From positions 1 through 25,170 of the IMG/VR virus record IMGVR_UViG_3300030451_003124: a stretch of DNA of 25,170 nucleotides, one strand, 5' to 3'. The stretch is from a virus. Both the position numbers and the translations under genes were made by a program. The notes under the pieces are model-generated. The model was not told where the DNA came from. It did not search any database and saw nothing but the letters and a program-made list of their open reading frames with translations. Positions 5,872 to 25,170 of this stretch are shown here, piece by piece; position 1 is the stretch's first letter, and each line of letters begins with the position of its first letter.

Positions 5872-6158
5872 GCAGGTCACATGACTTCAAAAATGAAGTT
5901 CACCATGTTTTGGAACCCTCTCTCCATGTGGGCGAGGAAATTCATATCATGACCACAAATGCCTATGCGGATCGTGTTATGAACATAAGGATGAATAGAG
6001 TCGTGCCGTCGAGAACGGGATATGTTGGATACACTAAGGTCGGATTTTTCATTACGAGGGATGAAGCGATCAAACTCAGGGACGCATTGTCAACAATCAT
6101 TGACAATGATGATGCATGGATCGTAGTTGAGGGGGACACGATAGATGGAGACTCCTGA
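5868..6158 (+). CDS. Hypothetical protein, 96 aa
   Basis: The ATG at 5868 overlaps the upstream stop (ATGA); the open frame upstream of it is a shadow. Residues 15-60 look like beta strands (EEIHIMTTNAYADRVMNIRMNRVV) and are followed by a FFITRDEAIKLRDALSTIID segment, a strand-turn-helix seen in many small phage proteins where an ITxxEAxxLxxAL helix packs on a sheet. Function unknown. It overlaps the next gene by 14 bases. Confidence 0.55.
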   Translation: MSRSHDFKNEVHHVLEPSLHVGEEIHIMTTNAYADRVMNIRMNRVVPSRTGYVGYTKVGFFITRDEAIKLRDALSTIIDNDDAWIVVEGDTIDGDS

Positions 6159-6540
6159 TTGGACTGACTTGTCGGGTTTCACTAAGCAACATTATGCAAT
6201 CATCGACAAAGCCTGCATCATCATAGCATCTGATCCAGAGCCCGTTGCCAAGTTGGCTAAGGACATCTGGACTGCATCTAGGAAGATAGCAAACAGGACT
6301 CCTATGTCCTTATGCTTCGATTGCGTCTATATCGCTGCGAATGCATTAGGAGTTCCAGCCTCCAAGTCATTCGTGAAGTTCGTCTCCAACAAGGTCGTTG
6401 GTAAGAGCATCACGCCCATGGTTTCCAACAAGGGCGCTAAGGGAGACAGGTGGTTCATCAGTAAGGAGGGCAAAGACGCCATCATGGATGTCATCGATGA
6501 CGAGGATATCTATGAGGACCTATTCAAGGAATGGTTGTGA
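6145..6540 (+). CDS. Possible TFB-like cyclin-fold protein, 131 aa
   Basis: Residues about 16-82 follow the pattern of a single TFIIB/TFB cyclin repeat: a helix (HYAIIDKACIII), a second helix (VAKLAKDIWTASRKI), then 'ANRTPMSLCFDCVYIAANALGVPASKSFV'-type spacing, which compares with the GRSPxSxAAAxxYxAxxxxGxxxT signature of TFB. The second repeat and the N-terminal zinc ribbon of a full TFB are absent. If real, it could modulate host transcription initiation. Other helical proteins could give the same look, so I hold this as a moderate-to-low call. The start overlaps the upstream gene by 14 bases. Confidence 0.5.
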   Translation: METPDWTDLSGFTKQHYAIIDKACIIIASDPEPVAKLAKDIWTASRKIANRTPMSLCFDCVYIAANALGVPASKSFVKFVSNKVVGKSITPMVSNKGAKGDRWFISKEGKDAIMDVIDDEDIYEDLFKEWL

Positions 6541-7952
6541 TGCTGCCATTCAGATCATTGGCAGAGTCGTGGAGGATACTCTCTCATAACAGGCTCAGGA
6601 AACGGAGCGAGGTCATCTGTGGAAACATCCTTGCTTGTAGGGATCCATATGTTGCAGTATCCTTTCTGTATCCCGTTGATGGTCGAAAGAGACTGTCGGA
6701 TGAGGACTTCAGGGAGATCTTCTTTCTCCTGACTGACGCATACCCAGAGGAGGTATATGATGATCCAGATCCGATACATCTCCTCTCCACGCTCTCAGAA
6801 ACTGAATTGACTCAGATCGATGCTGCCTCAGTGGTGAGAAGGATAGACTTGATCTTGGATGCAGAGGACAACGAGAGCAGGGCCAAGATGCTTCGGCCAT
6901 GCTTCGATAGGATATCGAGGATAGATCTCTTTGCCATGTTGATGAGATTGAGCGTGAGGGGCTCGCCTGTGACAAGGAGAGATGTGATGCAAGGGATGGC
7001 GAAGGCATATGATCAACCATTCCATCAGATCAGAACATCTGTCAATCTGTTCGGTATGCAGAACACCTTGAACACATTGTCCTTAGGGTCATTCGATTAC
7101 TCAAACATAAGACCGCTCCTTGGCAGTCCCCTAGTGATGCCATCTCCATCCATGGTCACGTCAATCGGGGATGTCAAATTCGGCAAGTGCTTCGCAGAAT
7201 CCTTGGAGGGTGTGTATGTCACATTGCACAACTCTCCTGCTGGCGTCAAGGTGTTCGACGTGGGTGGGGTGGAGATCGAGGATGTGGATTGGGCGGAGGG
7301 ATGGGTGTCGATAGCCTCAGTCCCACATGGCATATTCCTTTGCGACTATGCGGAGAACAGGGACAATCCAATGATGATGGTCGATTGGCTGTCCCCAGAT
7401 GACCCATCATGGACATTCTTCAGGCGTCGTAAGAGCATGGAGTCCATGCCACCATGGGCGCTGAAGCCGATGCAAGTCCTCGATGGCCCTCATCTCTCTG
7501 ATGGCTATGCAGCCATGGGACGGCCATACTTGCTAAGGAACAGCGCATCCATCCTCTCATACGAGAACACCATGCAAGAAGTCGTTCTAGTAGTGCCAGA
7601 GAGCCCCACGGAGCGCATCCTTAGGGTGATGAGTGGTAGGGTGGTCCCATCCACCACTGGAGGCCCTCCTCGGCTTCTATGGGCCCTTGGGGCGAGGGAT
7701 GGCTTCGATTACCTCAAGGTGGCTGAGTGTGAGTCCGCATTCGACTTCAACCACTACTGCGCCCCATACAAGAGACAAGATGGCGAGGCTATTAGGGTCG
7801 AGACGCCATTGTTCGTCAAGGCCAGCATCGCCTCATCTGGTTGGGGAGACATAGGACCGTATGCCGATGCCACCATTACGGGACTCGCACCATCGGCTGG
7901 GATCAATGACTGCTTGGGTGCGGAGGAGTTGGGCTATGCCGATCTTGACTGA
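6540..7952 (+). CDS. ATP-dependent DNA ligase homologue lacking the catalytic lysine, 470 aa
   Basis: I chose the ATG at 6540 (TGATG overlap; AAGGA ten bases upstream) over the ATG at 6531. The layout matches archaeal ATP-dependent DNA ligases. Residues 1-160 resemble the helical DNA-binding domain, with FRSLAESW at the start and 'ESRAKMLRPCFDRISRIDL...LMRLSVRG' near 112-141. 'IRPLLGSPLVMP' at 190-201 precedes the nucleotidyltransferase core, as 'xPMLA' does in ligases. The active-site motif ExKxDGxR reads as E220-S-L-E-G-V-Y, so the lysine that carries AMP is serine (S221) and the arginine is tyrosine. The protein is therefore probably not a working ligase but a DNA-binding or structural derivative. 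The C-terminal third may be the OB domain. Confidence 0.6.
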   Translation: MLPFRSLAESWRILSHNRLRKRSEVICGNILACRDPYVAVSFLYPVDGRKRLSDEDFREIFFLLTDAYPEEVYDDPDPIHLLSTLSETELTQIDAASVVRRIDLILDAEDNESRAKMLRPCFDRISRIDLFAMLMRLSVRGSPVTRRDVMQGMAKAYDQPFHQIRTSVNLFGMQNTLNTLSLGSFDYSNIRPLLGSPLVMPSPSMVTSIGDVKFGKCFAESLEGVYVTLHNSPAGVKVFDVGGVEIEDVDWAEGWVSIASVPHGIFLCDYAENRDNPMMMVDWLSPDDPSWTFFRRRKSMESMPPWALKPMQVLDGPHLSDGYAAMGRPYLLRNSASILSYENTMQEVVLVVPESPTERILRVMSGRVVPSTTGGPPRLLWALGARDGFDYLKVAECESAFDFNHYCAPYKRQDGEAIRVETPLFVKASIASSGWGDIGPYADATITGLAPSAGINDCLGAEELGYADLD

Positions 7953-8331
7953 GGAGGATAGACACCTCGTTGCCCTCGCCTCCTCCCTTAGGGCTGGCGT
8001 GAGATGCGAGAGAAGCAAGTCCAAGCCATCTGGGTATCTCATCAGGACTGAGATATGGTTTCCTAATGGAGCGTATCATAGAGTCAGGGATACTGCTGGC
8101 AAGATCATTGAATCCAAGGGGATACCATTCAGAAGAAGATACACCAAGGCCGATGAGATATCATCCATACTCATGATGATCGAGGGGCTGGAGTCGATCA
8201 ATCGTGACCCTACGGGGATTGAGACGGCCCGTGAGTTCAATGGCCGGATATCAAACCCAAAATCATACCGAGACGTTTTGAAGGCGATAACCATGTTGGA
8301 TGAATTCCACTGCTCGATCACTCAAGATTGA
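7936..8331 (+). CDS. Hypothetical protein, 131 aa
   Basis: The ATG at 7936 follows a GGAGG at 7922-7926 and overlaps the ligase-like gene by 17 bases; the open frame upstream of it is a shadow. The protein is basic in the middle (RCERSKSKPSGYLIR, PFRRRYTK) with amphipathic helices on both sides. No motif is recognised. It is the last gene before a 59-base intergenic gap that carries a promoter-like element. Confidence 0.6.
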   Translation: MPILTEEDRHLVALASSLRAGVRCERSKSKPSGYLIRTEIWFPNGAYHRVRDTAGKIIESKGIPFRRRYTKADEISSILMMIEGLESINRDPTGIETAREFNGRISNPKSYRDVLKAITMLDEFHCSITQD

Positions 8332-8390
8332 GAGAGGTTATATGTCAATCAAGTAGTCGTCTCAACCCAAGAATAGTTGGTGATCAAAAG
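8332..8390 (+). promoter_or_regulatory. Intergenic promoter candidate: GAGAGG + TTATATG (copy 2) and extended Shine-Dalgarno
   Basis: This is one of the few intergenic gaps on the + strand. GAGAGG (8332-8337) and TTATATG (8338-8344) follow the stop codon directly. GGTGATC at about 8379-8385 matches the 3' part of the extended AGGAGGTGATC ribosome binding site and lies five bases before the ATG at 8391. It could start a separate transcript for the replication genes. Confidence 0.5.
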
Positions 8391-9695
8391 ATGACATCGA
8401 ATGAACAACAAATAGATCGAATAATGAATGCAACAGGGTGGAGCAATGAGGAGTTCACACAGAAGTTCTCTGAGTTCGTCGCAGAGATGTATCCTGAATT
8501 ATGGGAGGCTGCTGGCAAATCGACAGCAGGCCTAGATGAAGAGGACTTTGACACGTTCATGGCAGCGTTTGAAGTCACCACCATAAGAAGGGGCGGCGGT
8601 GGAAACGCTGGAAAGGGACCAGATTGGGTCGGCATGATCGTCGGCTACATCGGAACGAGGGACCTCATGGAGAAGCAGAGGACTGCTGTCATAGAGGCAT
8701 CTGGAGACATATCTAGTCTCCTAAGATATGGCATCAGCACAGGCAATAAACCCGTTAGTGTTGGAAGGGTCGGCTGGAAAGATACGTCATGGACCGTCTA
8801 TGACCACAGTGACAAGCCACTATACCGACAGCAGGGCGTTGAGACTGAACCACCTGAGTGGGCTATCCCCGGAAAGACGGGAGTCTTGTTCGCTCTTATG
8901 GGTGCGAATGGGCCAAAGAAGGCATACTCGTTCAAGAGAGAATGGCTTGTAGTTGTGAATGAGAAGGATAAGTTCCTATCAGAAGGACCATTGCCACCTA
9001 TGACATTAGAATGTTCATGGGATGCTGCTGAAGTCGATATTAGGATGAACGTGCCTGTTATGTTCAAGGCAGAGAAGGACACTGCATGGTATGACTCTCA
9101 AGTCCCTGTGCTGAAGGCAGGAAACATAGCGCCACAGTATGGACTTGATTGGGTTGATGACAGCATCATGATGAAGGTGCAGGACATGTTCTCTCCTGAG
9201 CAGTTTCTACCGCAGTTCGTCCCCTATGAGCCAGACCTATCCAAACTGCATGAATACCATGATGAGAACCTAAGGCTCACAGACCAAGGCAGAGAGGTCG
9301 GCCCGACATTCCTGATCAGGGGTGTTGTCGATTACCTTGACCATGATGGGAAGGAGAGGGAATACTCAGAAGGAGGATACCAGCATTCACTGACTCTCAT
9401 GAGCAACTCGTTAAGGAATGCAGATTCCAATGCGTCGATATGGGTCGATGTATCTAGGAAACTCGTCACCATGGGTGCGTTCAATGTCATCAAGAACAAT
9501 GAGACGCACACCTATGCCAAGGGCTCACAGGTGTTCGCAGTCGTTCAGACCAGATCATGGACAGACAGCGTGGGTGACATCAGGCTCTCATTCGCTGCTA
9601 GGAACGTATGGGCATCGCCCCTAAGATCAATCATTGCTGAAGATGTCCCAGAGGATGCTGGTGACATGGGTGACTTTGGCGGGTTCAGGGGGTGA
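8391..9695 (+). CDS. OB-fold single-stranded-DNA-binding protein candidate (RPA-like), 434 aa
   Basis: The ATG at 8391 is preferred over the TTG at 8328 because GGTGATC precedes it and the region between holds a TATA-like element. An N-terminal helical domain with acidic character (about 1-65) is followed by a glycine-rich linker. Next come beta-rich segments, including 'FLIRGVVDYLDHDGKEREY' and 'VFAVVQTRSWTDSVGDIRLSFAARNVW', which look like OB-fold strands. The last 20 residues are acidic and end in an aromatic/glycine tip (GDFGGFRG), like the partner-binding tail of SSB proteins. The adjacent Sak4-like ATPase, nuclease and primase support a role in coating ssDNA. I could not align it to a named family with certainty. 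Confidence 0.5.
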   Translation: MTSNEQQIDRIMNATGWSNEEFTQKFSEFVAEMYPELWEAAGKSTAGLDEEDFDTFMAAFEVTTIRRGGGGNAGKGPDWVGMIVGYIGTRDLMEKQRTAVIEASGDISSLLRYGISTGNKPVSVGRVGWKDTSWTVYDHSDKPLYRQQGVETEPPEWAIPGKTGVLFALMGANGPKKAYSFKREWLVVVNEKDKFLSEGPLPPMTLECSWDAAEVDIRMNVPVMFKAEKDTAWYDSQVPVLKAGNIAPQYGLDWVDDSIMMKVQDMFSPEQFLPQFVPYEPDLSKLHEYHDENLRLTDQGREVGPTFLIRGVVDYLDHDGKEREYSEGGYQHSLTLMSNSLRNADSNASIWVDVSRKLVTMGAFNVIKNNETHTYAKGSQVFAVVQTRSWTDSVGDIRLSFAARNVWASPLRSIIAEDVPEDAGDMGDFGGFRG

Positions 9696-9700
9696 AATGA

Positions 9701-10960
9701 ATGGCTGGAACAGGATTCATTGACAATTGGGAGAAGGTTGACCCCAAAACAGGAAAGAAGGCAGATGGCACTTCTGCGCCTAAGCCATCTCCAAAGAAGC
9801 AGGAGGCCACAAAGAAGAACGTGTGGGGCGAGGACATCGATCCCAATGCTCCGACTGTGCAACAGTTGAGAGAGGAGGAGGAAGCGATGATAAGAGCGGA
9901 GGAGGAGGCGAGAAAGGCCAAGGCCAAGGCACAGGTCCCTGTCCCCGTTCCAAAGGACCTCAAGCAACCGAAACCAACGGCTCCAAAGGTCGTCACGACC
10001 CCAGAAGCAGGGCATGTGGATTGGAACCCCATAGAGACGGAGATAGCCGCAGCAAGGGCATCGAAGGAATGGAAGGGCAACTACATCCTCATGGGCATAG
10101 CAGGCCCTCCAAAGAGTGGAAAGACAGGATCCATCCTAGACAGCCTCACTAAGAAGGAGATAGACAATGGCGCTGAGATATGGCATCTTGACTTCGACCT
10201 TGGTGGCGAGACGACCAAGGCCGCACATCACCCCGGAAACAACAACATCGTTGTCCTCAATCCATGGGTGCTGAACAAGAACAAGAGCAGAGTGCCGTAT
10301 GACTTCCCAGCGACATACCAGAAGACACTTGACTTCCTATTGGCTGCTGTCGATCAGGCAGACAGGCAGGCTGCATACTTCGCAGAGCATGGGGAGATGC
10401 CAAAACCATACCTGAAGACGATATGCTTCGATGGCGCTGATCACTGGCTGAACATCTGTGAGACGACCATGAAGGTCGATGACCTGAAGTTGGGTCCAGA
10501 TGGCATCTCCGTGGCAGGAAAGGATGCCACGACCAAGATTGGCAGGTTCAACTGGAACATACGAAAGAACAGATACAACAGCGCACTGACGGTGTTGCAG
10601 GAATTGTGCAGGAGAGGTGTCCACTGCTACATCATTACGCACATGAAGCCTCAATACGACTCGACAGGTGCTGAGATCATCGGAGCAGGTAGCCCCCACT
10701 GGTTGAAGGACACAGAGGGATGGCTCCAGCAGACCGCCATCATCGAGGTCGATGAGGAGAGGGATGACAGAGGGGAGTTGACGGGCATCGTCAATTCCTA
10801 TGCTGTGGTCACGCAGAACCGAACGAGCCTCAAGTCCCCCGGAAGGATACATCTCTTCAGGAAGGACAAGGATGGCGGCGAATGGTATGGCTGGCCCGGA
10901 CTGAGGGATGGGTCAATTGACCATCCTGACAACGTGATCCAAGAAGATTCTAAAAACTGA
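9701..10960 (+). CDS. RecA-core ATPase, Sak4/AAA_24-like, 419 aa
   Basis: The ATG at 9701 follows GGGGGTGA six bases upstream. Residues 1-105 are a Lys/Pro/Ala-rich, charged, probably disordered and coiled region. The core starts near residue 125: Walker A G135-PPKSGKT142, an acidic strand WHLDFDLGG at 161-169, and Walker B-like KTICFDGADHW at 239-249. A segment VHCYIITHMKPQYD follows, as in RecA-core proteins. This is the organisation of phage Sak4-type single-strand-annealing/recombination ATPases (AAA_24). Such proteins act with SSB, and an SSB candidate is the adjacent upstream gene. A replication-loader role is an alternative. Confidence 0.65.
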   Translation: MAGTGFIDNWEKVDPKTGKKADGTSAPKPSPKKQEATKKNVWGEDIDPNAPTVQQLREEEEAMIRAEEEARKAKAKAQVPVPVPKDLKQPKPTAPKVVTTPEAGHVDWNPIETEIAAARASKEWKGNYILMGIAGPPKSGKTGSILDSLTKKEIDNGAEIWHLDFDLGGETTKAAHHPGNNNIVVLNPWVLNKNKSRVPYDFPATYQKTLDFLLAAVDQADRQAAYFAEHGEMPKPYLKTICFDGADHWLNICETTMKVDDLKLGPDGISVAGKDATTKIGRFNWNIRKNRYNSALTVLQELCRRGVHCYIITHMKPQYDSTGAEIIGAGSPHWLKDTEGWLQQTAIIEVDEERDDRGELTGIVNSYAVVTQNRTSLKSPGRIHLFRKDKDGGEWYGWPGLRDGSIDHPDNVIQEDSKN

Positions 10961-10978: not shown

Positions 10979-11929
10979 ATGGCCGAATTGATGAAGATAC
11001 GAGAGCCAAGGGCATATGATGTCCCCGGCAAGCCCGGTTTGAAGTCAACCTATGGTTGGCATCCCGGTATGCCCCCTGACATCATACTCAGGGTGTCCAA
11101 GACATCTCTTGGCACTGCTGGGTTCTGTGCCCAGCAGTATTTCCTCAAGTATCCCTTGGGGATAAAGGAGCCTGCCAATGACAACATGATCAGGGGATCC
11201 AACGTCCACGATGCGATAGAGGAGTTCTATCAGAACATGAATCTATCATACGCACTGTCCATGAGGTCCTATGGGTATGATGAGGTGAAGAAGTATTTCC
11301 TCACTCACATATCCGAGGAGAAGGGATACGCATTGGGGGAGGAGGATCACCTCATCAAGTATCTCGATGCCGAGGCAAAGAGGTTCATGACCGCCGAGGA
11401 TGAATACTTCCTCCCTATCGGGAACGAGGTTTCCCTCGATGCCGTCGTTGAGGTGGATGGTGTGCTTGTCCACCTTACAGGAATCGTTGACAGGCTGTTT
11501 GCCGATGGAGATGGCATCCCTCATGTTCATGAGTTGAAGACAGGAGTCTGGAGCGGGAAGCCCAGAAAGTGGGAGTCAATGAGAAAGGAGATGGCATACT
11601 ATGTCTATCTCATCAAGAGGTGCGAGCATGAGGTCCTTGGGGGACTCGATGTTGAGTGGTGGGGATGGGACCACACAGGGGCAGACGAGATCTTCAGGCA
11701 CATCGAGGCGGTTAGGGTCAAGGAGGTTTCATCGATGATGAAGTCCTTGAAGGATCTTGTTGCCATGCATAAGCAATACACAGGAAACAAGAACGGGGTC
11801 ATGTTCCCCCTCAAGGACGAGGGGGCTGTGAAATACATATGCGAGCCATGGTGTGCGATCAAGGGATTCTGTCCTAGATACTATGAGGTTCTCAAACCAT
11901 CTAATTTGAGACAGGAGGCCTTCTCTTGA
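10979..11929 (+). CDS. Cas4/RecB-like PD-(D/E)XK nuclease with 4Fe-4S cysteines, 316 aa
   Basis: The ATG at 10979 has GGGGTG about nine bases upstream. Visible motifs in order are C50 (GFCAQQYFLKYP), H77 in RGSNVHDAIEEF, G168-IVD171, the nuclease motif E185-L-K187 in HELKTG, a Q/Y-type helix (EMAYYVYLIKR), and C288, C292, C298 in CEPWCAIKGFCPRYY. One distant plus three clustered cysteines is the Fe-S arrangement of Cas4 and AddB-type nucleases. The likely role is end-processing or exonuclease activity in viral replication or recombination. No CRISPR array or Cas1/Cas2 is nearby, so this is not evidence of a CRISPR system. It is followed by a TTGA overlap with the primase gene. Confidence 0.75.
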   Translation: MAELMKIREPRAYDVPGKPGLKSTYGWHPGMPPDIILRVSKTSLGTAGFCAQQYFLKYPLGIKEPANDNMIRGSNVHDAIEEFYQNMNLSYALSMRSYGYDEVKKYFLTHISEEKGYALGEEDHLIKYLDAEAKRFMTAEDEYFLPIGNEVSLDAVVEVDGVLVHLTGIVDRLFADGDGIPHVHELKTGVWSGKPRKWESMRKEMAYYVYLIKRCEHEVLGGLDVEWWGWDHTGADEIFRHIEAVRVKEVSSMMKSLKDLVAMHKQYTGNKNGVMFPLKDEGAVKYICEPWCAIKGFCPRYYEVLKPSNLRQEAFS

Positions 11930-13023
11930 GCCATCTCTTCGACCACTTCCCAAGAGAGGTCGATATGAGATTGAGGAAGGTCGTCAAGAGCATGGAAGAG
12001 TTGCAGAGTTATGTGTCCTCCATGAATGGAAAGGACAACCTGACGACGACTGTCTATGGTTTCAAGGAGTTGAAGCCCAACAGGACCAGATGCGAATACT
12101 CCACAGCCATCGTCCCTCACTTCGTCATCGACCTCGATAAGGGGAGGGCGAAGGAGATGATGGACATCGATGACCATGAGGCAGGAGAGAGATGCACCAT
12201 CGATACGCACAACCTCGTCAAGCACCTGAATGAAAATGACTTGCGTCATGCGACATGGTTCAGTGGTGGGGGATACCATGTTTGGGTCATGTTAGACACC
12301 ATCCATGATGTGTCTGCCATGGAGTTGAACGACCTGCTATTCTCCGGTAGGGCCATGTTGAACAAGTGGATTAAGGACATGGATCTCATCACAGTGGATC
12401 CCGTGGTTTCATTCAGGCCGGACAGGCACATAAGGATACCAAACACGTTCAACTTCAAGAGGGGACTGTGGTCTATCCCTGTGAACCAGAGCGACTTGGC
12501 CACAGGATGGGACAACATCACCAAGATGGCGACCAAGGCATCCAGCGGCATGAAGGTCAGTGGCACTAAGGGAGTCCACATAGACATCGTTCATCGGGAT
12601 CCGGGCAATCCCTTCATGCTCAACAACACAGCCATGAAGTTCGATAGCGATGACATCACGATATCCGCATCGAGCGTGTCTGGGATACCCATGCTCCCAT
12701 GCATAGAGGCATCTGCCTGTGTCAAGGGAAGCAACCCATCCCACATGCCGAGAGTGTATCTCCTGATGTATCTCTTGGACTACTTCAGGAAGTTCGCTAG
12801 GCCACCTAGCAGCACCGAGGTCCCACCATCAGAGATCCTCAATAAGACTCACAGTTTCATCCATGAGTTAGACTGGTCTGATTACAAACCGGATGTGACT
12901 CGCAAGATGATAATGCATGGCATGAGCCGGGAATACATGACTCCGACATGCCCAACCCTGTATGGTCAGGGTCTATGTGTTGGTAAGTGTCCTTTCTATG
13001 ATGGAAAAGGTGGTATATCGTGA
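11926..13023 (+). CDS. priS/priL-like: Archaeo-eukaryotic primase: PriS-like catalytic domain fused to a PriL-type Fe-S domain, 365 aa
   Basis: A TTG start overlaps the upstream TGA (TTGA). The AEP catalytic motifs are present: HFVIDLDKG with D69 and D71 for metal binding, WFSGGGYHVWV with S113 and H118 for nucleotide handling, and VDPVVSFRPDRHIRIP with D158 and R167/R170. The C-terminal part (about 255-360) has C259 in LPCIEA, a helical middle (HMPRVYLLMYLLDYF), a second helical block, and C342, C351 and C355 in TCPTLYGQGLCVGKC. This is the layout of the PriL C-terminal 4Fe-4S domain. Catalytic and Fe-S parts, normally on two subunits in cells, are thus on one chain. It should make primers for viral DNA synthesis. 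Confidence 0.75.
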   Translation: MSHLFDHFPREVDMRLRKVVKSMEELQSYVSSMNGKDNLTTTVYGFKELKPNRTRCEYSTAIVPHFVIDLDKGRAKEMMDIDDHEAGERCTIDTHNLVKHLNENDLRHATWFSGGGYHVWVMLDTIHDVSAMELNDLLFSGRAMLNKWIKDMDLITVDPVVSFRPDRHIRIPNTFNFKRGLWSIPVNQSDLATGWDNITKMATKASSGMKVSGTKGVHIDIVHRDPGNPFMLNNTAMKFDSDDITISASSVSGIPMLPCIEASACVKGSNPSHMPRVYLLMYLLDYFRKFARPPSSTEVPPSEILNKTHSFIHELDWSDYKPDVTRKMIMHGMSREYMTPTCPTLYGQGLCVGKCPFYDGKGGIS

Positions 13024-13295
13024 CGACAGATGATGAATTAGAAGAGATAAGAAAGAAGAAGGCACAGACCTTGTTGGGGTCATTGGATGAAATGGATGAG
13101 GAGGAGCGTAAGCAGGCCATGGAGTTCCTCCCATGGGCATTCAGGCTCAATCATGAGACTGGATTCATGGAAGTCCTTCAGAACGAGCAGTTGGTTGCCA
13201 TAACAGTGGATCCCAGATTCGCTGAGATGATAACCGACATGCTGAATAGGGCACAACTTTTCCAAGATGCCTATAACATGGGCGGGGATGACTGA
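13020..13295 (+). CDS. Small acidic protein, 91 aa
   Basis: A GTG start lies in a GTGA overlap with the primase gene, and the stop overlaps the next ATG (TGATG). The N-terminus (DDELEEIRKKKAQTLLGSLDEM) is a charged helix that recalls the start of PDCD5-type proteins, but the rest does not extend that match. A short FRLNHETGFMEVLQNEQLVAITVDPRF segment suggests two or three strands. Its position between primase and nuclease suggests a replication accessory or adaptor role, which is inference. Confidence 0.6.
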   Translation: MTTDDELEEIRKKKAQTLLGSLDEMDEEERKQAMEFLPWAFRLNHETGFMEVLQNEQLVAITVDPRFAEMITDMLNRAQLFQDAYNMGGDD

Positions 13296-13999
13296 TGACC
13301 AAAGTGATGTTCATCGATCATAGGGAGAAGTCCGGGCTTGAAGAGTTAGTGAGGAAGTATCTCGACAAGAACAACCTCTTCCACCAAACGAGGGAGAACC
13401 TCATCACGGACTATGCCTTCTCTAGCGTCGGCATAGAGGCTAAGTCTATACATGACTACATGCAATCATTGCAATCAGGCCATCTCCAAAGGCAGTTGCA
13501 GAACCTCGATGACAACTACAATACCATGATATTGGTCATACATGGAACCGTTGACAAGTATGTCGCTGATGCTCGTAAGGCAGGGAGGAGGATACCCTAT
13601 GCAAGAGCATGGGCATCATTCGTGGGATCCATTGCTAGGTTCATGACGGACTACGATGTCCATGTCGTGACGTTCCCAGATAGGTCATCTGCCGCTCGCT
13701 TCATCTGCAAGCGGTTTGAGAAGCATGGGACTCTTGGATCCTCCTCGACATACAGGATCATGCGAAAGACGGCATCAGAGGATAGGAGGGTGGACATCCT
13801 TAGGGCTGCTGGGTGTAGCCATGCCATAGCAAATAGAATGCTTGAGGAGTTCGGATCCATAGCGGAGATAACATCCGCCAGCCCCAAGGAGTTGCAGACC
13901 ATAGAAGGGGTCGGCAAAATAAGAGCAAAGAGAATATCACAGTGTCTGAACAGCGAGGAGCCTGTTGCAGATGAGAGGGTGAAGATGAGTCGAGCGTGA
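13295..13999 (+). CDS. XPF/ERCC4-type nuclease with C-terminal helix-hairpin-helix pair, 234 aa
   Basis: The N-terminal domain matches the ERCC4 nuclease pattern: FIDHREKSG (D8, R10, E11), TDYAFSSVGIEAKSIHDYMQSL with D39, E48-A-K50 and D54, then a GHLQRQLQNL helix. The usual ERKxxxD signature reads EAKxxxD, so the arginine is replaced but the acidic residues and lysine remain. A TMILVIHGT strand and a Arg-rich helical part follow. Residues about 167-216 hold two helix-hairpin-helix elements (AAGCSHAIANRML; IEGVGKIRAKRI). Cleavage of branched or flapped DNA is expected. There is no helicase domain, unlike archaeal Hef. Confidence 0.75.
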   Translation: MTKVMFIDHREKSGLEELVRKYLDKNNLFHQTRENLITDYAFSSVGIEAKSIHDYMQSLQSGHLQRQLQNLDDNYNTMILVIHGTVDKYVADARKAGRRIPYARAWASFVGSIARFMTDYDVHVVTFPDRSSAARFICKRFEKHGTLGSSSTYRIMRKTASEDRRVDILRAAGCSHAIANRMLEEFGSIAEITSASPKELQTIEGVGKIRAKRISQCLNSEEPVADERVKMSRA

Positions 14000-14047: not shown

Positions 14048-15499
14048 TTGATTGGGGAATCTGTTGAGAATGCATCAAGGCGTAAGTGGAGTGACTACTC
14101 ATTCGTCAATGCTCCATCGGCTGGAAGCAACTTCATACGGCAATACGTCGAGAGATTCAATACAGTATCATACTTCAATGAATATGCAGGCCTGCTATCA
14201 TACTTCTATGTCTTGGGTCAGTATCTAGCACCATACATCAGGATACCAATACACGGCAGTCACATTGATTGCAGGACTCATGTATATTGGATTCAAGAGT
14301 CGAGGACTGGAAAATCAGTTGCATGGGACTTCACGGCTAAACTTCTCAGGGCGCTCGATATAGAGGCTGAGTCATTCACTGCTGGATCCGATGCCAAGTT
14401 GATAGGAACTGTCGAGAAGGTTCCGATCATGGGTGAAAACGGAAAGCCGACTGGAGAGCATGATGTTGAAGTCATACCGGGCTTGCTCAATGGATACAAG
14501 ACATTACTCTTCGATGAAGCGAGCGTATTGCTCAATGACCAGAAGGCATACTTCAGCGACAAGATACTGTATCTGCAACAGGCCATGGCTCCATTGGGTA
14601 GCGAGACGAACGTCTTGGTGAAGCATCTTGTGGGCGGATCAGTTCATACACCATCTGGAGTGTCCCTATGGATGACTACGTTCCCTCCAAAGGATATCAT
14701 GTCCCATGTTCTTGAGAAGGGTTTCTTCCAAAGAGTATTCCTATATCAGAACAGTGTGGACATAGAAACAAGACAAACCACCAGTGAGCATAGGATGAGT
14801 GGAGCATACGTTCCAGTCCCTGACAAGATATGGTCGTATGATGATCTTGCTAAATCTATCAAGCGGACTGGCGACATCATCCGTGGCAGGATTCTCACAG
14901 CAGCAGGAATGAGTGAAGAGGATTACTCAAAACTCAGTGATGTGGAAAAAGAGAGGCTGGCAATAAAGCACAGATATGATGTGTTTCAGGTATCATCCAA
15001 CTTCTATCCTGCATTGCTGAATGCGGTTGATGATTACTATGCCTTGGTTCGACAAGTTAGGAATGACAACATAAGAGAGACAGCCATGTCGTTCCTTCCG
15101 AACGTGGAGAATTACACGCTGATATTCACCAACTTAATCGCTGCCACCATGGGATCGACCAAACTGACTAGCGATCATGTCATGATGGCGACTGAGATCA
15201 TCTTCGACAACCTGAACAACCTGTTCATCTGGTTAGAGGAGAAAGAGTCGTACAAACAGGCTAAGAACACCGAGGGTGTAATGAAGCAATGGAAGAAAGC
15301 GTGGGGTAAATGCCACAAGATGGTCAACAACAGAGTGAACAGAGAGGTCGTTAGAAAGAGCCAGATCTTAGAGATATACTCCAGACAAACTGGTATTGCT
15401 GAAAGGACTGCTAGAAGGAGAATAGATGAGATGATAATGAGCGGGGTAGTCAAGACAGTCAAAGATGGAAGATTGGTCTTCGTGTATTTTGAGGTGTAA
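14048..15499 (+). CDS. AAA+/DUF3987-like ATPase with C-terminal winged helix (helicase candidate), 483 aa
   Basis: The TTG at 14048 is supported by GGAGGTG five bases upstream. Walker A appears as QESRTGKS (K89, S90); the usual first glycine is missing. Walker B is KTLLFDEAS (D156, E157). A sensor-like stretch (SGVSLWMTTFPPKDI) and an arginine-containing segment GFFQRVFLYQ near residue 230 are as expected of an AAA+ or DUF3987-type helicase core. The last 50 residues (QILEIYSRQTGIAERTARRRIDEM...) form a winged helix, as in MCM proteins. Next to the primase, a replicative-helicase role is plausible. A terminase or RecA-type ATPase is less likely. Confidence 0.6.
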   Translation: MIGESVENASRRKWSDYSFVNAPSAGSNFIRQYVERFNTVSYFNEYAGLLSYFYVLGQYLAPYIRIPIHGSHIDCRTHVYWIQESRTGKSVAWDFTAKLLRALDIEAESFTAGSDAKLIGTVEKVPIMGENGKPTGEHDVEVIPGLLNGYKTLLFDEASVLLNDQKAYFSDKILYLQQAMAPLGSETNVLVKHLVGGSVHTPSGVSLWMTTFPPKDIMSHVLEKGFFQRVFLYQNSVDIETRQTTSEHRMSGAYVPVPDKIWSYDDLAKSIKRTGDIIRGRILTAAGMSEEDYSKLSDVEKERLAIKHRYDVFQVSSNFYPALLNAVDDYYALVRQVRNDNIRETAMSFLPNVENYTLIFTNLIAATMGSTKLTSDHVMMATEIIFDNLNNLFIWLEEKESYKQAKNTEGVMKQWKKAWGKCHKMVNNRVNREVVRKSQILEIYSRQTGIAERTARRRIDEMIMSGVVKTVKDGRLVFVYFEV

Positions 15500-16713: not shown

Positions 16714-16913
16714 TGACAACGGCTTTCGACGCAGCATGGGAGATTGTGAAGGGGGACAATGTTCCCACCAACCCCTCCCTATGGTCACAGGCCAAATCCA
16801 AGGCCAAATCCAAGTTCAAGGTCTATCCCTCTGCTTATGCCAACGGTTGGGCCGCTAAGTGGTATAAGTCCAAAGGCGGCGGTTGGAAGAAGAAGGGCAA
16901 GGGTAAGAAATGA
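16713..16913 (+). CDS. FxKAW-tagged basic protein, 66 aa
   Basis: The ATG at 16713 overlaps the upstream stop (TGATG); a GTG at 16710 would add one residue. The N-terminus MTTAFDAAWEIVKGDN carries the tag (AAW in place of KAW). A Lys-rich AKSKAKSK repeat follows, then FKVYPSAYANGWAAKWYKSKGG, a 'KVYPSAYANxWxxxxYKxxGGxW' element that I recognise from small basic proteins next to structural genes of marine phages. It ends in Lys/Gly repeats. A DNA-binding or packaging role is inferred from charge. Confidence 0.6.
   Translation: MTTAFDAAWEIVKGDNVPTNPSLWSQAKSKAKSKFKVYPSAYANGWAAKWYKSKGGGWKKKGKGKK
16791..16814 (+). repeat. Two tandem copies of a 12-bp unit
   Basis: GCCAAATCCAAG occurs at 16791-16802 and again at 16803-16814 with no mismatch. 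The unit encodes AKSK in the basic FxKAW-tagged protein. It is probably a small coding expansion. Confidence 0.7.
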
Positions 16914-17530
16914 TTGCCAGTCCTATCTCTAAGTCAGTTGACAAGGATCTCAGGCGATGGTTCAAGGAGAAGTGGGTCGATGTATCCCGTAAGGACAAGG
17001 ACGGTAAGCATCCTCCTTGTGGCAGGGATGAGGCCAAGACTGACAGCAGGGGATATCCCAAGTGCAGGCCATCCAAGAAGGTCAGTGAGAAGACTCCGAA
17101 GACATCGAGGAGCATGAGTGCCAAAGACAAGAAGGCGGCTACTAGAAGAAAGAGAAGCAAGCCTCAGGGTGTGGGGGGAAAGCCGACCATGGTCAAGTCA
17201 ACGATCTGTGATTGTGAGACATGCAACACACTGACCAAGGCCATGCTCATGAAGGGCAAGAAGAAAGAGAAACCGTTCCACGGCTACAATCCGAAGAAGC
17301 ACAGTCGGAAGGGTGGCCTGAATGCCGCTGGTCGTGCTAAGTTCAAGAGAGAGACTGGAGCCAATCTGAAGCCTCCTGTCACAGAGAAGCCATCTACATT
17401 GAAACCCGGATCGAAGAAGGCAAAGAGGCGAAAGTCATTCTGTGCTAGGATGTCTGGCGTCAAGGGACCAACAAGCAAAGGCGGAAAACTCACACCGAAA
17501 GGTGCAGCACTGAAAAGGTGGAATTGTTAA
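16910..17530 (+). CDS. Basic DUF5872-like plus DUF6321-like protein, 206 aa
   Basis: The start is in an ATGA overlap. Residues about 11-66 match the DUF5872 pattern I know from viruses: DLRRWFKEKWVDVSRK, GKHPPCGR, RGYPKCRPSKKVS, TPKTSRSMS. A basic linker and a small cysteine cluster (C100, C102, C105) follow. Residues about 124-206 match the DUF6321 pattern: HSRKGGLNAAGRAKFKRETG, ANLKPPV, RRKSFCARMSGVKGP and a closing KGAALKRWNC. The protein is very basic overall. Biochemical roles of both families are not established; association with virions or DNA condensation is inference. It lacks the FxKAW tag but lies between tagged genes. Confidence 0.7.
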   Translation: MIASPISKSVDKDLRRWFKEKWVDVSRKDKDGKHPPCGRDEAKTDSRGYPKCRPSKKVSEKTPKTSRSMSAKDKKAATRRKRSKPQGVGGKPTMVKSTICDCETCNTLTKAMLMKGKKKEKPFHGYNPKKHSRKGGLNAAGRAKFKRETGANLKPPVTEKPSTLKPGSKKAKRRKSFCARMSGVKGPTSKGGKLTPKGAALKRWNC

Positions 17531-19610: not shown

Positions 19611-20416
19611 CAGTATTCCTCCATATCACTAAGTTGAGTTGTCAAATATCCTCTTCTTTGTGGCTCAGGATATTTTGCCTCATGTTCCAGTAGCGACCTA
19701 AACCTCTCATTTTGATCCTGTTCATACTCCAAGATCCCCTCTGGTCCGATCCTGTATGTCTGTTCAGGGAACAAGGGAGGACCACTTACTTGCACCTGAC
19801 CCTTGCTGCGTTGACCCCTCGCACTTGCAGCAGCCGCTTCATCCAAAGCAGTTTCTAGTGTTTTACGATCTGTGATTCCTGCATCCCTAATTGCTCTAAC
19901 TAAACTTGCCCTTTCCAACTCATCTAACAGTTCATCCTTGCCAGATTGAAGAAAGGACGATTCAAAATCTCTTAGAGAATCTGAGAAGTCTCCAATTTCA
20001 TAATCCATTCTAGGAGGGACCATAATTTTTCCATCCCTTACATCTTTCTTGAACTTAGCAGCATCCATCAACGCTCTCATTGTTGGAATGTATTCTCCAG
20101 ACAGAGGGTCGTATTCAACTGAGGATCGGAACTTATCGTTGTAAAAATCATCTTCAGGGCCTCCCATTTCTCGATAGTTTGATGTCTCATAACCCCTACT
20201 TGAATCGATACCATATCTATCTCCTGTCCTTGGGTTAATGTTTGGATCACTGTCAAAAGGATACATAAAACTACTAAAGTGAGGGATCCTAGAACCTCTG
20301 AATGCCAGATTGGCATCTTCATCGAAATATGATGGTGGTTGTCCAATTGGACTTGGTATTTTGAAATCGACATCTTTGACGAGATCCCAAGCCTTATTGA
20401 ATACGTTCAATCTCAC
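19610..20416 (-). CDS. FxKAW-tagged, AT-rich protein of unknown function, 268 aa
   Basis: On the minus strand a GTG at 20416 overlaps the upstream TGA (GTGA) and has a near-perfect AGGAGGTGAT directly before it. The N-terminus MRLNVFNKAWDLVKDVDF carries the tag. The remainder is hydrophilic, rich in Asp, Glu, Arg, Ser and Tyr, with long charged helices (ELLDELERASLVRAIRDAG, TALDEAAAASARGQ) and disordered-looking loops. GC is about 40% in sampled 60-base lines, against about 60% in the genes on either side. No family recognised. It may be a recent acquisition or a scaffold/assembly protein. It is the only tagged protein on this strand. Confidence 0.6.
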   Translation of the reverse strand: MRLNVFNKAWDLVKDVDFKIPSPIGQPPSYFDEDANLAFRGSRIPHFSSFMYPFDSDPNINPRTGDRYGIDSSRGYETSNYREMGGPEDDFYNDKFRSSVEYDPLSGEYIPTMRALMDAAKFKKDVRDGKIMVPPRMDYEIGDFSDSLRDFESSFLQSGKDELLDELERASLVRAIRDAGITDRKTLETALDEAAAASARGQRSKGQVQVSGPPLFPEQTYRIGPEGILEYEQDQNERFRSLLEHEAKYPEPQRRGYLTTQLSDMEEY

Positions 20417-23400
20417 ATCACCTCCTTGAACAGGCTCTTGCTCTGACCGATGGGTTTGGCATAGCCGCCGCTCGCATTGACACCGATGTATCCCAATCCG
20501 CCTTGATTGTTTCCTATAACGAAGCCTTGGTTGTTTATGTTCCTGACTAGCATCTTGTATGCGGCGACGACATGCACCCTGCCGCCGACAGACATCTCCA
20601 CGACATCTACGATGGACCCAGCATTCTCCTCCAGTGGCTCGCTGTTCCCAGATACAGTCTGCAAGTCGGATAGTATGCCCTCTATGCCCTTCTCGTATTG
20701 TGCGATGATGAAGTCGGAGGTCAGTGTCGAGTAATTGTGGAGAGCCTCAAAGACTGCAAAGTCGCCAGATAGGTTGTGGGTTGGGAACTCCACGGAGACT
20801 ATCTCTCCGGGTTGTATCATGGTTGACCTCAATGCGCCCTTGACTGTGATGACTGGCGCACCGTTCTCTGTCCTGTGGAGTATGTTCTTGGCGAGCCTGT
20901 GTGCCTCTGCCTTGGTCTTTATTCCGGGGACCTCCTTCCTTAGGGTCCTGACGAGTTCTGAGTTCGCACCCCTGCTGGCGTCCGACTTCATCCTCTCCAA
21001 GTCCTTGATGACGACGAATGCCCTTTCATTGGCCGCTGACGAGTCTCCGACCACGATGATCTCATTGGGCGAATCGAGCATCTTGCTCACAGATATGTCC
21101 AATATGCCATTCGCCATGCCGAGGATGTTGCCCTTGTGGGTGAATGAGTCGGATGAGTAGATGAGTCCACCAGACCTCTCATTGACGAGTTGTTTGCCAT
21201 CTATCTGGCTCAATGATGAGATGACTTCCATAATGTTCAGTCCTATGCTCTTTCTGGCCGTGAATGTAGGAGAGTGATCGTTTATCAATCTCAGACTTGG
21301 ATGAGCATTCAGTGTATTGCTGACCTCCCTATCCTTGCCGACGAGATTGACGCTGGGCGTCACGTTGTATGCGGCCAACTCAGGCGAGGCGTCGTTGAGC
21401 ATGTGCATGACTGCATCCGATGTCCTGATGCCAACATGTCCCAACTGCCCCAAGAGAGCCATTCCGGGGGACATGCCGAAGTCAGACAGGCTGTCGGCAT
21501 CTATGTTCCTGAATCTCAGTATGGTGGATATGTCGTCGCTCTCCACACCAGCGACCCTTAGTCTCGTCCCTGTGCTATCGACTAGGTAAGGGGCAAACCT
21601 GTCCGCTGTGATCGTTTGCCCATCATGCCTCAGTGTCGATATCTGATCCTGAACAGACTTGATCTTGGCTGTGGTCGCACCATCCTCTACCATTACTGGT
21701 CGCTGACTGGTCATGTAGAAGTCAGATGGATCATACTCAAGCAGGCCCCTGAATGATAGGCTGGTCTGTCTCACAGCATCATTGGTGGCATCATAGCGCC
21801 TCCATGAGTCAGAAACCTGCTTCATGGCTACGACGGCGTTGTCAACGAAGGTGGGGGCAATCAGATGTGGGTGGGTCAGGGCTCTCATATCAGTCAGGGC
21901 AGATGGGCTTGAGACAGTTGTATATCGGGCAACGTAGCCCTTGAGAGATGATATTCCTGTGCTGTTCGTCACACCCGTTATACGGTTCCCAGACTTCCCG
22001 GTATATGCTATCTTACCAGCGTTCACGACGAATAGGCTACCGCTGGATGGGAGCATAGAGGCATCGTCCAAGAGAAGCGTAGTGCCGCTGTGTTCAACCA
22101 CAGTGAATGATGGATACAGCCTCGCAGCAGTGTCATTGTGCTTCCTGCTTATCTCCTCTGGCAGCGTGTGTCTGGCGAAGTCGCCACCGACACCTGTCCC
22201 GTCATTGGCGTATCTCGACTCAGACTGGTGTATAAACTCGCCACCACCGGGATGAGTGGTCTGAGAGTATCTGGGTTCTATCTCAGGGTTGAATGAGCCA
22301 TCTATGGTCTTTCTAGCAGCGTCTGACTTGAAGAACTGCAACATGGCTGTGGATGGTATCAGATGATAAACGACATCATGCTCATTGGCGTCTGGGTATT
22401 CGATCTGGAATGCACCATCTGCTGTGCTGATGAAGTCCAGTGTCCCTAGATTCATGTCCAGATTAGCCTCAAAGACGCCATATCTGTTGTCCCTAGTCAA
22501 TACCAGATCCTCGTAGTCACCACTCTCAAACTTCACACGGGCTCCATGGACCCAGCCATCCTGCAACTGCTGTGATGCGAATCCGAACATCTTCAGGGGC
22601 CTCACTAGGCGAACGTAGTAATCCACATGCTTCCTCCTTGGATGGGAGATCATGCCTGCGCCTGAGTTGCCATCTATCTCCGTTGATATCGAACCATCCT
22701 CTGTCCTGTTGAGATATGTCTTCCTGAGTATGTATGCTCCTCCCCAAGAAGGTAGATCAGCCGAACCTCTGACAGACCATGTGTCTTTGGCATACTGCTC
22801 CGCTGTGACGGATAGGGATGAGCCTCCCTTCGATGCATTGGTGTCAGGGCTCCACACTGGCTTGGTGTGTTGGCCGGAGATGGTCTGGGACGAGGGGGAG
22901 GAGGGGTCGAGGGTCATGCCCTTGGTCGTGAATCTGGTGTTTATCGTCCATGATGGCGTCACAGGGAACTGCTGCCCGATGCCAAGGTCGCTGTTGAGCG
23001 AGTATGCCTTCGTGCCCACAACGGCATACTCCACGTTGGCATTGCTGTTCCTCTCGCTCTCTGTCTCGATCACTAGACCGAGCCTTGGTTCGCTTCTTCC
23101 CTGCACGTTCCTGTGATCTGCTATCTCGGACAGTGGGATGGGCGTCAGTGAGTTGATCGTGCTGTTGGTGTGAGAGCCCTGTCCCCATCCGCTGGTGGGG
23201 TAGTGCGTGTTGGACGACGAGTGATCGACTGCGGAGGCGTTGACGTGCAGCGCATTGCCCCTCAGATGGAAGAAGCCACCAGTGATGCCGAAGTTCGTGG
23301 AACTGACCGCTGCCTTGGAGTTGGCTTGGCTGTATGACGAGGATCCTGTGTATTGGATCAGATCGATGTATGGGTCAGATCCCTTGTTCAAGGGGATGCC

Positions 23401-25170
23401 CTTCAATGGTTGATTGGCAGTTGCATTCGGATCCGCTATCGGCTCCCATGCACCAGATGCTAATGCCGTAGGCGTCACTAGGCCAAGAGATTCATTCTTC
23501 AATTTAGCACCGAAACCAATAGACTGCTCGGCTGAAGAGGGTCTGCTGTTGGATCTTCTGACAGCATTTGAGAAGACAGTTGACTCTGCTGTGTGCGCTG
23601 ATGAGACGAACCCAATGGGAACAGATCTCTCGACTCCAGAGTATGCAGATGGGAATCCCCATGATGCGCCATACGTCGTTGCATTGGGCATGACTTGCAT
23701 GGAATCGTGGATTCCACCATCAAATCTCGCTTTCCCATACACTGAGTCTTGTGATGCCTGTGTCTCTGTCGGATCGCCTGCGAGCATATCTAGCGCATCA
23801 CTAGATGTTCTGAAGCCGAATGCCCTCACAGGCAGTCTTCTGCTTGTATCATATGCTACCATATGATCAATGGATGCGAGGTATCTACTGACGTTTGCAT
23901 CATATGTGACACCACCATATGTTGACTCTGGGTTCACACCATCGCCTATACCCTCGCCTCGACTATACCTTGTCGAAGAATATGCGTCAAGAAGACGTAA
24001 TGTGCCCGATGCCTCTCTCACAGTGGTATGTCCCATCAAGACGCTGTTGGCAGACTTGAGCCCGGTTATGTTCCCATGACCGCCTGCATTCAGGCCGTTG
24101 TAGCCATAGTTCTGCATCCATTGGACCGCATAGAGCCTCTCAAAGGGTTGTGCGTTGGCAGGCGTCCCAGAAGTGCCTCCAGAGAAGTTTCTGAGCAGAA
24201 GACCCTTGGTAGCGGGGTAGTTGTAGCCTCTAGGCATCCCAGACTCCCTGTATCTGAAGGTCAAGAAGTGTTCTCTCGATGCGCCGAGGAGGGCTGGATG
24301 GCTGTATTCCGCCAGCCAAGTGCATAGGAACGCATCTGGAGTGCCACCAGAGGCGCAGTCCCCTGCTTTTATGAGTCCAAAGTCGGTATATACCGACGAT
24401 ATACTGCCTCCATTCGCCCCCAAAGCGGCCAAATTTGCGTATTCTGGATCGTGGACTAGGAGGGGTGGGACCGTCGCCAACTCCGTTGCGACTCTTGGAT
24501 AGATAATCCCCTCTTCCAGCCCAGAAACGAAGTAATCGCCGTTCTCCTCGTAAATCACTGGTGCGAAGGGCCTTCCTCCTCCCATGGTGTAGTCGTTGAG
24601 AATGAAGCCGTTGACCATAAACTCGCTACAAGCCGTGTCTGAGGCCATTGCAGCCGATAGAGTCAGTCTGGTAGCCCCAGCCACAGAGAGGCCGCTGTGG
24701 ACGCTTGGAGAGGCCCTCCTGACCGTCTGTGAGACTCCATCGACGTTCGTCTGCTCCTGACCCGGTGCGATCAGATAGTCAACGTCCATCGTCGTGGATT
24801 GACCAGATAGCCTGTAATTGTCCATTTCAAGGTCTGGGAGGCCATCTGAGGCGAAGGAACCAGTTGCCCTGTATGTTGACACCCCCTTGACCTCAAGCGT
24901 GTCCAGTTCAAGGATAGTCGTGCTATTCGTGGACTTTGCCGATGCGAAGCCGATGTGCTTGTGTTCCGACTCGCCCTCATAGAGAAGCGTGTATGCCGAT
25001 CCGTGGCTCCTGTGCAACTGTCTTCGCATGGCCTCTGGCGTCCCCCTGTGGGTCAGAGGGGTGACGAAGGAGTGGCCCTGTCGGGCGAAGCGGATGCGGT
25101 GGTGGGGGAAGGGGTAGCCCGTGGCTGTGCCGTTGTTGGTCTGCGTCAGCACCGATCCCCTCTCGGCGTG
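20413..25170 (-). CDS. Very large tail/baseplate hub-like virion protein, 5' end outside window (more than 1,579 aa)
   Basis: On the minus strand the frame is open to the right edge. A GTG at 25152 could be a start, but no stop lies between it and the edge, so I treat the gene as partial. The sequence is Ser/Thr/Gly/Asn-rich and beta-type for most of its length, with very few cysteines. Near the C-terminus, 'TVKGALRSTMIQPGEIVSVEFPTHNLSGDFAVFEALHNYS' compares with the end of phage tail-hub or Tal-like proteins ('xxPGxxVxVxxxxxxLxGxYxVxxVxH'). An adhesion or hub function is inferred. No endopeptidase or lysozyme motif was seen. The stop overlaps the AT-rich tagged gene. Confidence 0.6.
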   Translation of the reverse strand, partial: HAERGSVLTQTNNGTATGYPFPHHRIRFARQGHSFVTPLTHRGTPEAMRRQLHRSHGSAYTLLYEGESEHKHIGFASAKSTNSTTILELDTLEVKGVSTYRATGSFASDGLPDLEMDNYRLSGQSTTMDVDYLIAPGQEQTNVDGVSQTVRRASPSVHSGLSVAGATRLTLSAAMASDTACSEFMVNGFILNDYTMGGGRPFAPVIYEENGDYFVSGLEEGIIYPRVATELATVPPLLVHDPEYANLAALGANGGSISSVYTDFGLIKAGDCASGGTPDAFLCTWLAEYSHPALLGASREHFLTFRYRESGMPRGYNYPATKGLLLRNFSGGTSGTPANAQPFERLYAVQWMQNYGYNGLNAGGHGNITGLKSANSVLMGHTTVREASGTLRLLDAYSSTRYSRGEGIGDGVNPESTYGGVTYDANVSRYLASIDHMVAYDTSRRLPVRAFGFRTSSDALDMLAGDPTETQASQDSVYGKARFDGGIHDSMQVMPNATTYGASWGFPSAYSGVERSVPIGFVSSAHTAESTVFSNAVRRSNSRPSSAEQSIGFGAKLKNESLGLVTPTALASGAWEPIADPNATANQPLKGIPLNKGSDPYIDLIQYTGSSSYSQANSKAAVSSTNFGITGGFFHLRGNALHVNASAVDHSSSNTHYPTSGWGQGSHTNSTINSLTPIPLSEIADHRNVQGRSEPRLGLVIETESERNSNANVEYAVVGTKAYSLNSDLGIGQQFPVTPSWTINTRFTTKGMTLDPSSPSSQTISGQHTKPVWSPDTNASKGGSSLSVTAEQYAKDTWSVRGSADLPSWGGAYILRKTYLNRTEDGSISTEIDGNSGAGMISHPRRKHVDYYVRLVRPLKMFGFASQQLQDGWVHGARVKFESGDYEDLVLTRDNRYGVFEANLDMNLGTLDFISTADGAFQIEYPDANEHDVVYHLIPSTAMLQFFKSDAARKTIDGSFNPEIEPRYSQTTHPGGGEFIHQSESRYANDGTGVGGDFARHTLPEEISRKHNDTAARLYPSFTVVEHSGTTLLLDDASMLPSSGSLFVVNAGKIAYTGKSGNRITGVTNSTGISSLKGYVARYTTVSSPSALTDMRALTHPHLIAPTFVDNAVVAMKQVSDSWRRYDATNDAVRQTSLSFRGLLEYDPSDFYMTSQRPVMVEDGATTAKIKSVQDQISTLRHDGQTITADRFAPYLVDSTGTRLRVAGVESDDISTILRFRNIDADSLSDFGMSPGMALLGQLGHVGIRTSDAVMHMLNDASPELAAYNVTPSVNLVGKDREVSNTLNAHPSLRLINDHSPTFTARKSIGLNIMEVISSLSQIDGKQLVNERSGGLIYSSDSFTHKGNILGMANGILDISVSKMLDSPNEIIVVGDSSAANERAFVVIKDLERMKSDASRGANSELVRTLRKEVPGIKTKAEAHRLAKNILHRTENGAPVITVKGALRSTMIQPGEIVSVEFPTHNLSGDFAVFEALHNYSTLTSDFIIAQYEKGIEGILSDLQTVSGNSEPLEENAGSIVDVVEMSVGGRVHVVAAYKMLVRNINNQGFVIGNNQGGLGYIGVNASGGYAKPIGQSKSLFKEVM

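Follow-up and report, generated by a model that had tools for sequence, protein, structure and literature searches.

A DNA-ligase homologue lacking the catalytic lysine is conserved beside replication and recombination genes in a clade of probably archaeal tailed viruses

The DNA analysed here (the window) is a 25,170-nt stretch of an IMG/VR virus record. One gene on its plus strand, recognised from the list of open reading frames, a structural model, fold matches and relatives, encodes a protein that we call a pseudo-DNA ligase. It lies among genes for predicted replication and recombination proteins, and the features of the locus are as follows.

6145-6540, plus strand: upstream gene, 131 aa, whose stop overlaps the pseudo-ligase start
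6540-7952, plus strand: pseudo-DNA-ligase gene, 470 aa
6540-7100, plus strand: helical domain (residues 1-187), the counterpart of the ligase DNA-binding domain by secondary structure, conservation and profile alignment
6690-6716, plus strand: signature R-L-S-D-E-D-F-R-E at residues 51-59, which hardly varies across the pseudo-ligase family
7101-7601, plus strand: nucleotidyltransferase domain, residues 188-354, degenerate and shorter by about 40 residues than its ligase counterpart
7197-7211, plus strand: motif I remnant E220-S-L-E-G224, without the lysine
7602-7886, plus strand: OB-fold domain (residues 355-449)
7861-8331, plus strand: downstream gene, 156 aa, the next gene in 20/20 loci displayed
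8328-9695, plus strand: 455-aa protein with weak likeness to HVTV-1 gene 104, a hypothetical protein (hhalign probability 30.8, 114 columns)
9701-10960, plus strand: Sak4-like RecA-fold protein (phrog_124, E 2.5e-4)
10979-11929, plus strand: PD-(D/E)XK nuclease (PF12705, E 1.5e-15)
11926-13023, plus strand: primase-like protein (phrog_16345, E 1.6e-4; HVTV-1 gene 100, probability 97.3)
13295-13999, plus strand: ERCC4/XPF-type nuclease with HhH (PF02732, E 3e-16; HVTV-1 Hef, probability 93.4)
14048-15499, plus strand: well conserved 483-aa protein with a Walker-A-like TGKS seen by eye and no convincing Pfam match

The uninterrupted reading frame runs from 6531 to 7952 (473 aa) and carries an in-frame ATG at 6531, upstream of the one at 6540. 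We chose 6540, which is the better start because the starts of distant relatives align with it and because it overlaps the stop of the upstream gene by 1 base; all residue numbers are counted from there. The gene is under strong purifying selection, with dN/dS of 0.030-0.073 in four close pairs and 0.043-0.080 in seven more (11 of 15 pairs; synonymous sites were saturated in the remaining four). The gene order 6145, pseudo-ligase, 7861, 8328, 9701, 10979, 11926 is kept in 20/20 loci displayed. Together, the open frame, the selection and this seven-gene order bear out the original prediction of a full-length gene in an intact operon. Among the neighbours, the acidic tail of the 8328-9695 product suggests an RPA/SSB-like protein, and the 14048-15499 product may be a helicase or ATPase, possibly the replicative helicase or initiator.

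The likeness to ligases is invisible to sequence libraries, and fold and profile tests were therefore needed; it passed both. No ligase matched the pseudo-ligase when the E-value limit was set at 1 for Pfam and PHROGs, 0.1 for NCBIfam and 10 for PDB sequences, and PADLOC returned no usable match. Pfam ligase matches were likewise absent from all 33 family members searched, PF01068 being unmatched in the window and in all 33, and a faint match of member L051 to NCBIfam PRK03180 (E 0.03) fell far under the cut-off. The top Pfam match, a death effector domain (best E 0.022, 14/33 members), was rejected, as it was below the cut-off and is contradicted by the fold.

An AlphaFold2 model built from 33 sequences (pLDDT 86.5, pTM 0.62) predicts three domains, the first helical, the second mixed and catalytic, the third a beta-barrel. 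When it was compared with the PDB using Foldseek, archaeal ATP-dependent ligases filled the top six places, with E from 3.4e-18 to 5.7e-17, so that the predicted structure, which might have proved to be no ligase, has a ligase fold. VIA-align gave Z 23.5 to the Sulfolobus ligase 2hiv with 457 residues aligned and a whole-chain rmsd of 15.1, against an rmsd of 6.5 to 7rpx over model residues up to 357, suggesting that the OB domain is placed differently or uncertainly; at this pTM, the domain arrangement in the model is uncertain. The match list from viral predicted structures includes named DNA ligases, for example that of Halogranum tailed virus 1 (HGTV-1). Folded alone from 35 of 45 prepared rows (the remainder being near-identical), the catalytic domain reached pLDDT 92.7, and each of the 50 VIA rows listed for it was a ligase, at Z 12.4-14.0 and with rmsd 2.2-3.0. 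In archaeal and human ligases the matching segment exceeds the pseudo-ligase domain by about 40 residues.

Profiles were compared using hhalign in local mode, with a reference set of 32 ligases (one from HGTV-1, three from haloarchaeal plasmids and the others from genomes of one archaeal phylum). The viral family aligned collinearly with this set over 404 columns (probability 65.6, E 5.8e-5), and a 46-member version did so over 410 columns (probability 62.4, E 7.3e-5). As controls, eight neighbouring viral gene families scored probabilities of only 0.1-1.6 against the ligase set (8/8), and the pseudo-ligase family scored at most 0.7 against eight HVTV-1 proteins. The catalytic domains alone gave a probability of only 14.9, which indicates that the profile signal comes mostly from the full length. 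Foldseek, VIA and local hhalign therefore agree with the earlier proposal of an archaeal ATP-dependent ligase homologue with the same domain order, and the string RPLLGSPLVM that it had singled out is present at residues 191-200. Modelling and profile comparison thus support the pseudo-ligase as a full-length three-domain homologue of archaeal ATP-dependent DNA ligases.

Successive searches of viral contigs (4, 32 and 47 loci) yielded 47 relatives besides the window, with identity down to 32%. None was found in the phages collection. The genome-contig collection was searched by pattern only, where 81 pattern matches contained no relative, and no cellular homologue or provirus was found there. 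Including the window, 48 sequences were aligned, and 46 of these cover motif I; L053 and L054, fragments without the motif, were dropped from the alignment, and L042 was counted despite a single in-frame stop. Many of the 46 are near-identical, and they form 25 clusters at 90% identity, 14 at 70% and 6 at 50%.

In the translated window, residues 220-224 read E-S-L-E-G and residue 226 is tyrosine, exactly as first reported. The motif I lysine is present in 0/46 members, whereas KxDGxR occurs in 32/32 archaeal and haloviral ligases; the strings KxDG and KxEG are absent from all 46, and the family conserves no lysine elsewhere around the motif. As every member, window included, lacks the lysine, its loss is neither chance nor an assembly error. 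The rest of the motif persists, with E in 45/46 at the E220 column and E223, G224 and H230 in 46/46. At position 226, tryptophan occurs in 25 members and arginine in 13 (EGER, EGMR), the latter being, to judge by the sequences, a trace of a normal-ligase ancestor.

The original prediction held that S221 replaces the lysine. The lysine loss stands but the substitution does not, since a five-residue string had been set against a six-residue motif. Conservation of S221 among relatives, which had been put forward as a check, was not found: the column holds I in 20 members, S in only 6, T in 5, N and H in 4 each, P, E and R in 2 each and Y in 1, and the serine itself thus has no special role. In the profile alignment E220 pairs with the ligase glutamate and nothing fills the lysine column, and on this basis we believe, with moderate confidence, that the lysine was probably deleted as a single residue rather than exchanged for serine. 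The catalytic-domain match to Pyrococcus 2cfm, which starts at 241 with the lysine at 249, sets E220 against the glutamate and the lysine against the residue that follows S221; in the human ligase 1 rows the first aligned residue is 558 or 560, so that this first-aligned-residue check is not uniform with Pyrococcus.

Other ligase motifs are altered as well. RxDK, which defines ligase motif VI, is found nowhere in any of the 46 members. The position of the motif IV lysine holds arginine in 24 and tryptophan in 22, although local alignment confidence there is low. D282, at the motif IIIa position, is invariant (46/46), and the order of strands suggests that Y270 sits at the expected site of the motif III glutamate. 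The sole invariant lysine of the family, K309 (46/46), sits on a loop that follows a helix and precedes a later strand. In sum, the three-domain ligases of Sulfolobus (2hiv), Thermococcus (6wbo/3rr5), Pyrococcus (2cfm) and HGTV-1 share with the pseudo-ligase their domain order, a collinear profile, a motif I of the form E-x-x-E/D-G and the downstream histidine; they differ in having the motif I lysine, a catalytic domain longer by about 40 residues and RxDK, and the pseudo-ligase, unlike them, is missed by the Pfam, PHROGs and NCBIfam ligase models at their cut-offs.

Within the helical domain, R136, S138 and R146 are invariant across the family. The DNA-binding domain of ligases carries GxGE loops; inspected by eye, the pseudo-ligase showed no recognisable GxGE loop and no convincing PIP box or other clamp-binding motif. 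The acidic, family-specific RLSDEDFRE signature of this domain is a possible partner-binding site. The catalytic domain is acidic, its net charge being -6 to -17 in calculations for 12 members, compared with -22 to +8 in ligases (halophiles lowest), 14/32 of which are at 0 or above. DNA contact by this domain may consequently be weaker.

The related record G018 (108 kb) encodes a portal, a prohead protease and an SU10-like capsid, and its major capsid protein (MCP) shares 33% identity with the counterpart in Haloarcula virus HCTV-1. It also carries a full thermosome-type chaperonin (L059:16384-18015; Cpn60_TCP1, E 2.7e-136), as does a second long record, G012. The combination of chaperonin, head proteins and HCTV-1-like MCP points to archaeal Caudoviricetes, and the hosts are probably archaea; a marine habitat is suggested by the company of described relatives. 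The nearest described family may be Satyavativiridae of the Adrikavirales (Poseidoniales virus P01, PP497040), whose MCP is related to those of Druskaviridae haloviruses, for which no replisome of their own is reported and whose replication mode is listed as unknown (PMC13108676). Going by the published description only, its capsid relationship resembles that of the window clade. HVTV-1, a member of the Druskaviridae, has no pseudo-ligase homologue detectable by HMM in 100 kb or by hhalign among eight proteins. Elsewhere in the window, the 16910-17530 product matches DUF6321 (E 3e-18) and DUF5872 (E 3.8e-11), and its best stretch is 85% identical to a G018 protein (L059:3483), above the identity of its neighbours. 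The 1579-aa product at 20413-25152 on the minus strand is probably a tail protein (weak Phage-tail_3 match, E 0.04), a stretch of which is 55% identical to G018.

These viruses were also searched for a ligase or polymerase of their own. PF01068, the ATP-dependent ligase family, exceeded its cut-off in 0/26 records, the single weak match lying elsewhere in G012 (E 7.8e-4, under the cut-off), and the NAD-dependent ligase family PF01653 was found in 0/14. A custom ligase HMM was applied to the window, to the related loci and to segments of four long records and reached no better than E 0.049, but this HMM is blind to pseudo-ligases too, and a similarly degenerate true ligase would escape it. Given also that the records are possibly partial and that G012 has its weak PF01068 match, a true ligase may have gone unrecognised. 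Family B polymerase (PF00136) was found in 0/14 records, and Pfam scans of 61/80 called ORFs of G018 and 60/82 of G012 revealed no polymerase. A 1238-aa product of G018 (L059:6019-9732), which adjoins a UvrD-type helicase and has no Pfam match, is a candidate for an unrecognised replication protein. Published accounts credit magroviruses with an ATP-dependent ligase as well as a family B polymerase (PMC10768690, PMC10160649); neither was recognised above cut-off in the records searched for the window clade.

A non-catalytic function of the pseudo-ligase is well supported. Our preferred reading, to which we assign a probability of about 0.6, is that an archaeal-type ligase lost self-adenylylation in the ancestor of this clade and was kept as a non-catalytic, DNA-binding part of the replication or recombination apparatus. 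A three-domain ATP-dependent ligase of the archaeal kind would have lost its motif I lysine and motif VI, with motif IV altered, in the ancestor of one clade of marine tailed viruses, probably archaeal, and the dead enzyme would have been retained ever since inside the viral replication/recombination module. The protein would still clasp nicked or gapped duplex DNA, perhaps through the invariant R136 and R146, and may tether or place there the primase, the Sak4-like recombinase and the nucleases together with a host polymerase or ligase, while itself sealing no DNA. A DNA-bound scaffold is favoured by these two arginines and by the replication neighbourhood, and the acidity of the catalytic domain leaves room for a protein-adaptor role. 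The original prediction offered nick binding, end protection or competition with the host ligase as the non-catalytic role; a replisome or recombination scaffold seems at least as likely.

Could the protein nevertheless be active? That it is an ordinary ligase whose true lysine lies nearby and whose motif was misaligned is scarcely credible. K216 lies four residues ahead of E220 in the window protein, but it is a lysine in only 25/46 members (R, N, D, G, E or A in the others) and the profile alignment places no lysine there; no nearby lysine fills the active site across the family. We also consider it very unlikely that the protein is still an enzyme through another nucleophile, or that it performs step 3 without step 1 on nicks pre-adenylylated by another ligase. 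A ligase mutated at its lysine can, in principle, retain step 3, and the E and G of motif I, H230 and D282 are all invariant. Against this stand the loop position of K309, the only invariant lysine, ahead of a later strand, the arginine or tryptophan at the motif IV position, the missing RxDK and the tyrosine that probably occupies the motif III glutamate site.

Two non-catalytic alternatives seem to us improbable, and equally so. The protein may be a competitive nick-binder that shields nicks, gaps or ends from the host ligase, or blocks that ligase on the sliding clamp, so that intermediates of recombination-dependent replication or packaging ends stay open. The anatomy of an active ligase without its chemistry fits this idea, as does the proximity of the Sak4-like protein, the exonuclease-type nuclease and the ERCC4 nuclease; however, no clamp-binding motif was seen by eye, the catalytic domain is acidic, and the neighbours are replication and recombination parts among which no host-take-over protein was recognised. 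Alternatively, the ligase fold may serve purely as a protein-protein platform, possibly for a host polymerase, with no DNA contact. The nearly invariant acidic RLSDEDFRE and a second family-specific string, SGWGDxGxY, neither of them a ligase motif, would suit such an adaptor, and there is a precedent in poxvirus A20, the processivity factor of the E9-A20-D4 polymerase holoenzyme, whose middle domain is described as an inactive DNA ligase (PMC11142717). That domain consists of the catalytic subdomain and OB fold only, whereas the pseudo-ligase keeps the helical domain with R136 and R146 invariant.

A20 is the closest precedent. Going by A20's published description, both proteins are viral and have a dead catalytic subdomain followed by an OB fold. 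In A20, whose partners as a processivity factor are the viral polymerase and a glycosylase, the ligase part is joined to D4- and polymerase-binding parts and has a structural role in replication (PMC11142717); the pseudo-ligase differs in retaining a whole three-domain ligase, in viruses with no recognisable viral polymerase. A second parallel is DNA ligase IV, of which the inactive laboratory mutant K273A can promote joining through a structural role, inactive Lig4 favouring both repair and the activity of Lig3 (PMC9638927). That mutant is engineered, and the pseudo-ligase is a naturally fixed pseudo-enzyme. We found no comparable protein of archaeal viruses in the open-access literature, where a natural, lineage-wide dead three-domain ligase is undescribed, A20 and the engineered Lig4 mutants aside.

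More speculatively, and we think this somewhat doubtful, marine archaeal tailed viruses may have turned a whole ligase into a replisome scaffold independently of poxviruses, making it a nick-clasping processivity or hand-off factor. Such a factor would keep the polymerase and ligase of the host on viral DNA, alongside the viral primase, the single-strand-binding protein and the Sak4-like recombinase. If true, this would account for genomes as large as about 108 kb that do without a recognisable polymerase or active ligase. The finding also carries a warning, in that 'DNA ligase' calls made from fold alone in viral genomes can refer to catalytically dead proteins. The carriers appear to be uncultured marine viruses, whose possible nearest described family is listed with an unknown replication mode (PMC13108676); in them, the pseudo-ligase offers a direct test of what the ligase fold does without its chemistry.
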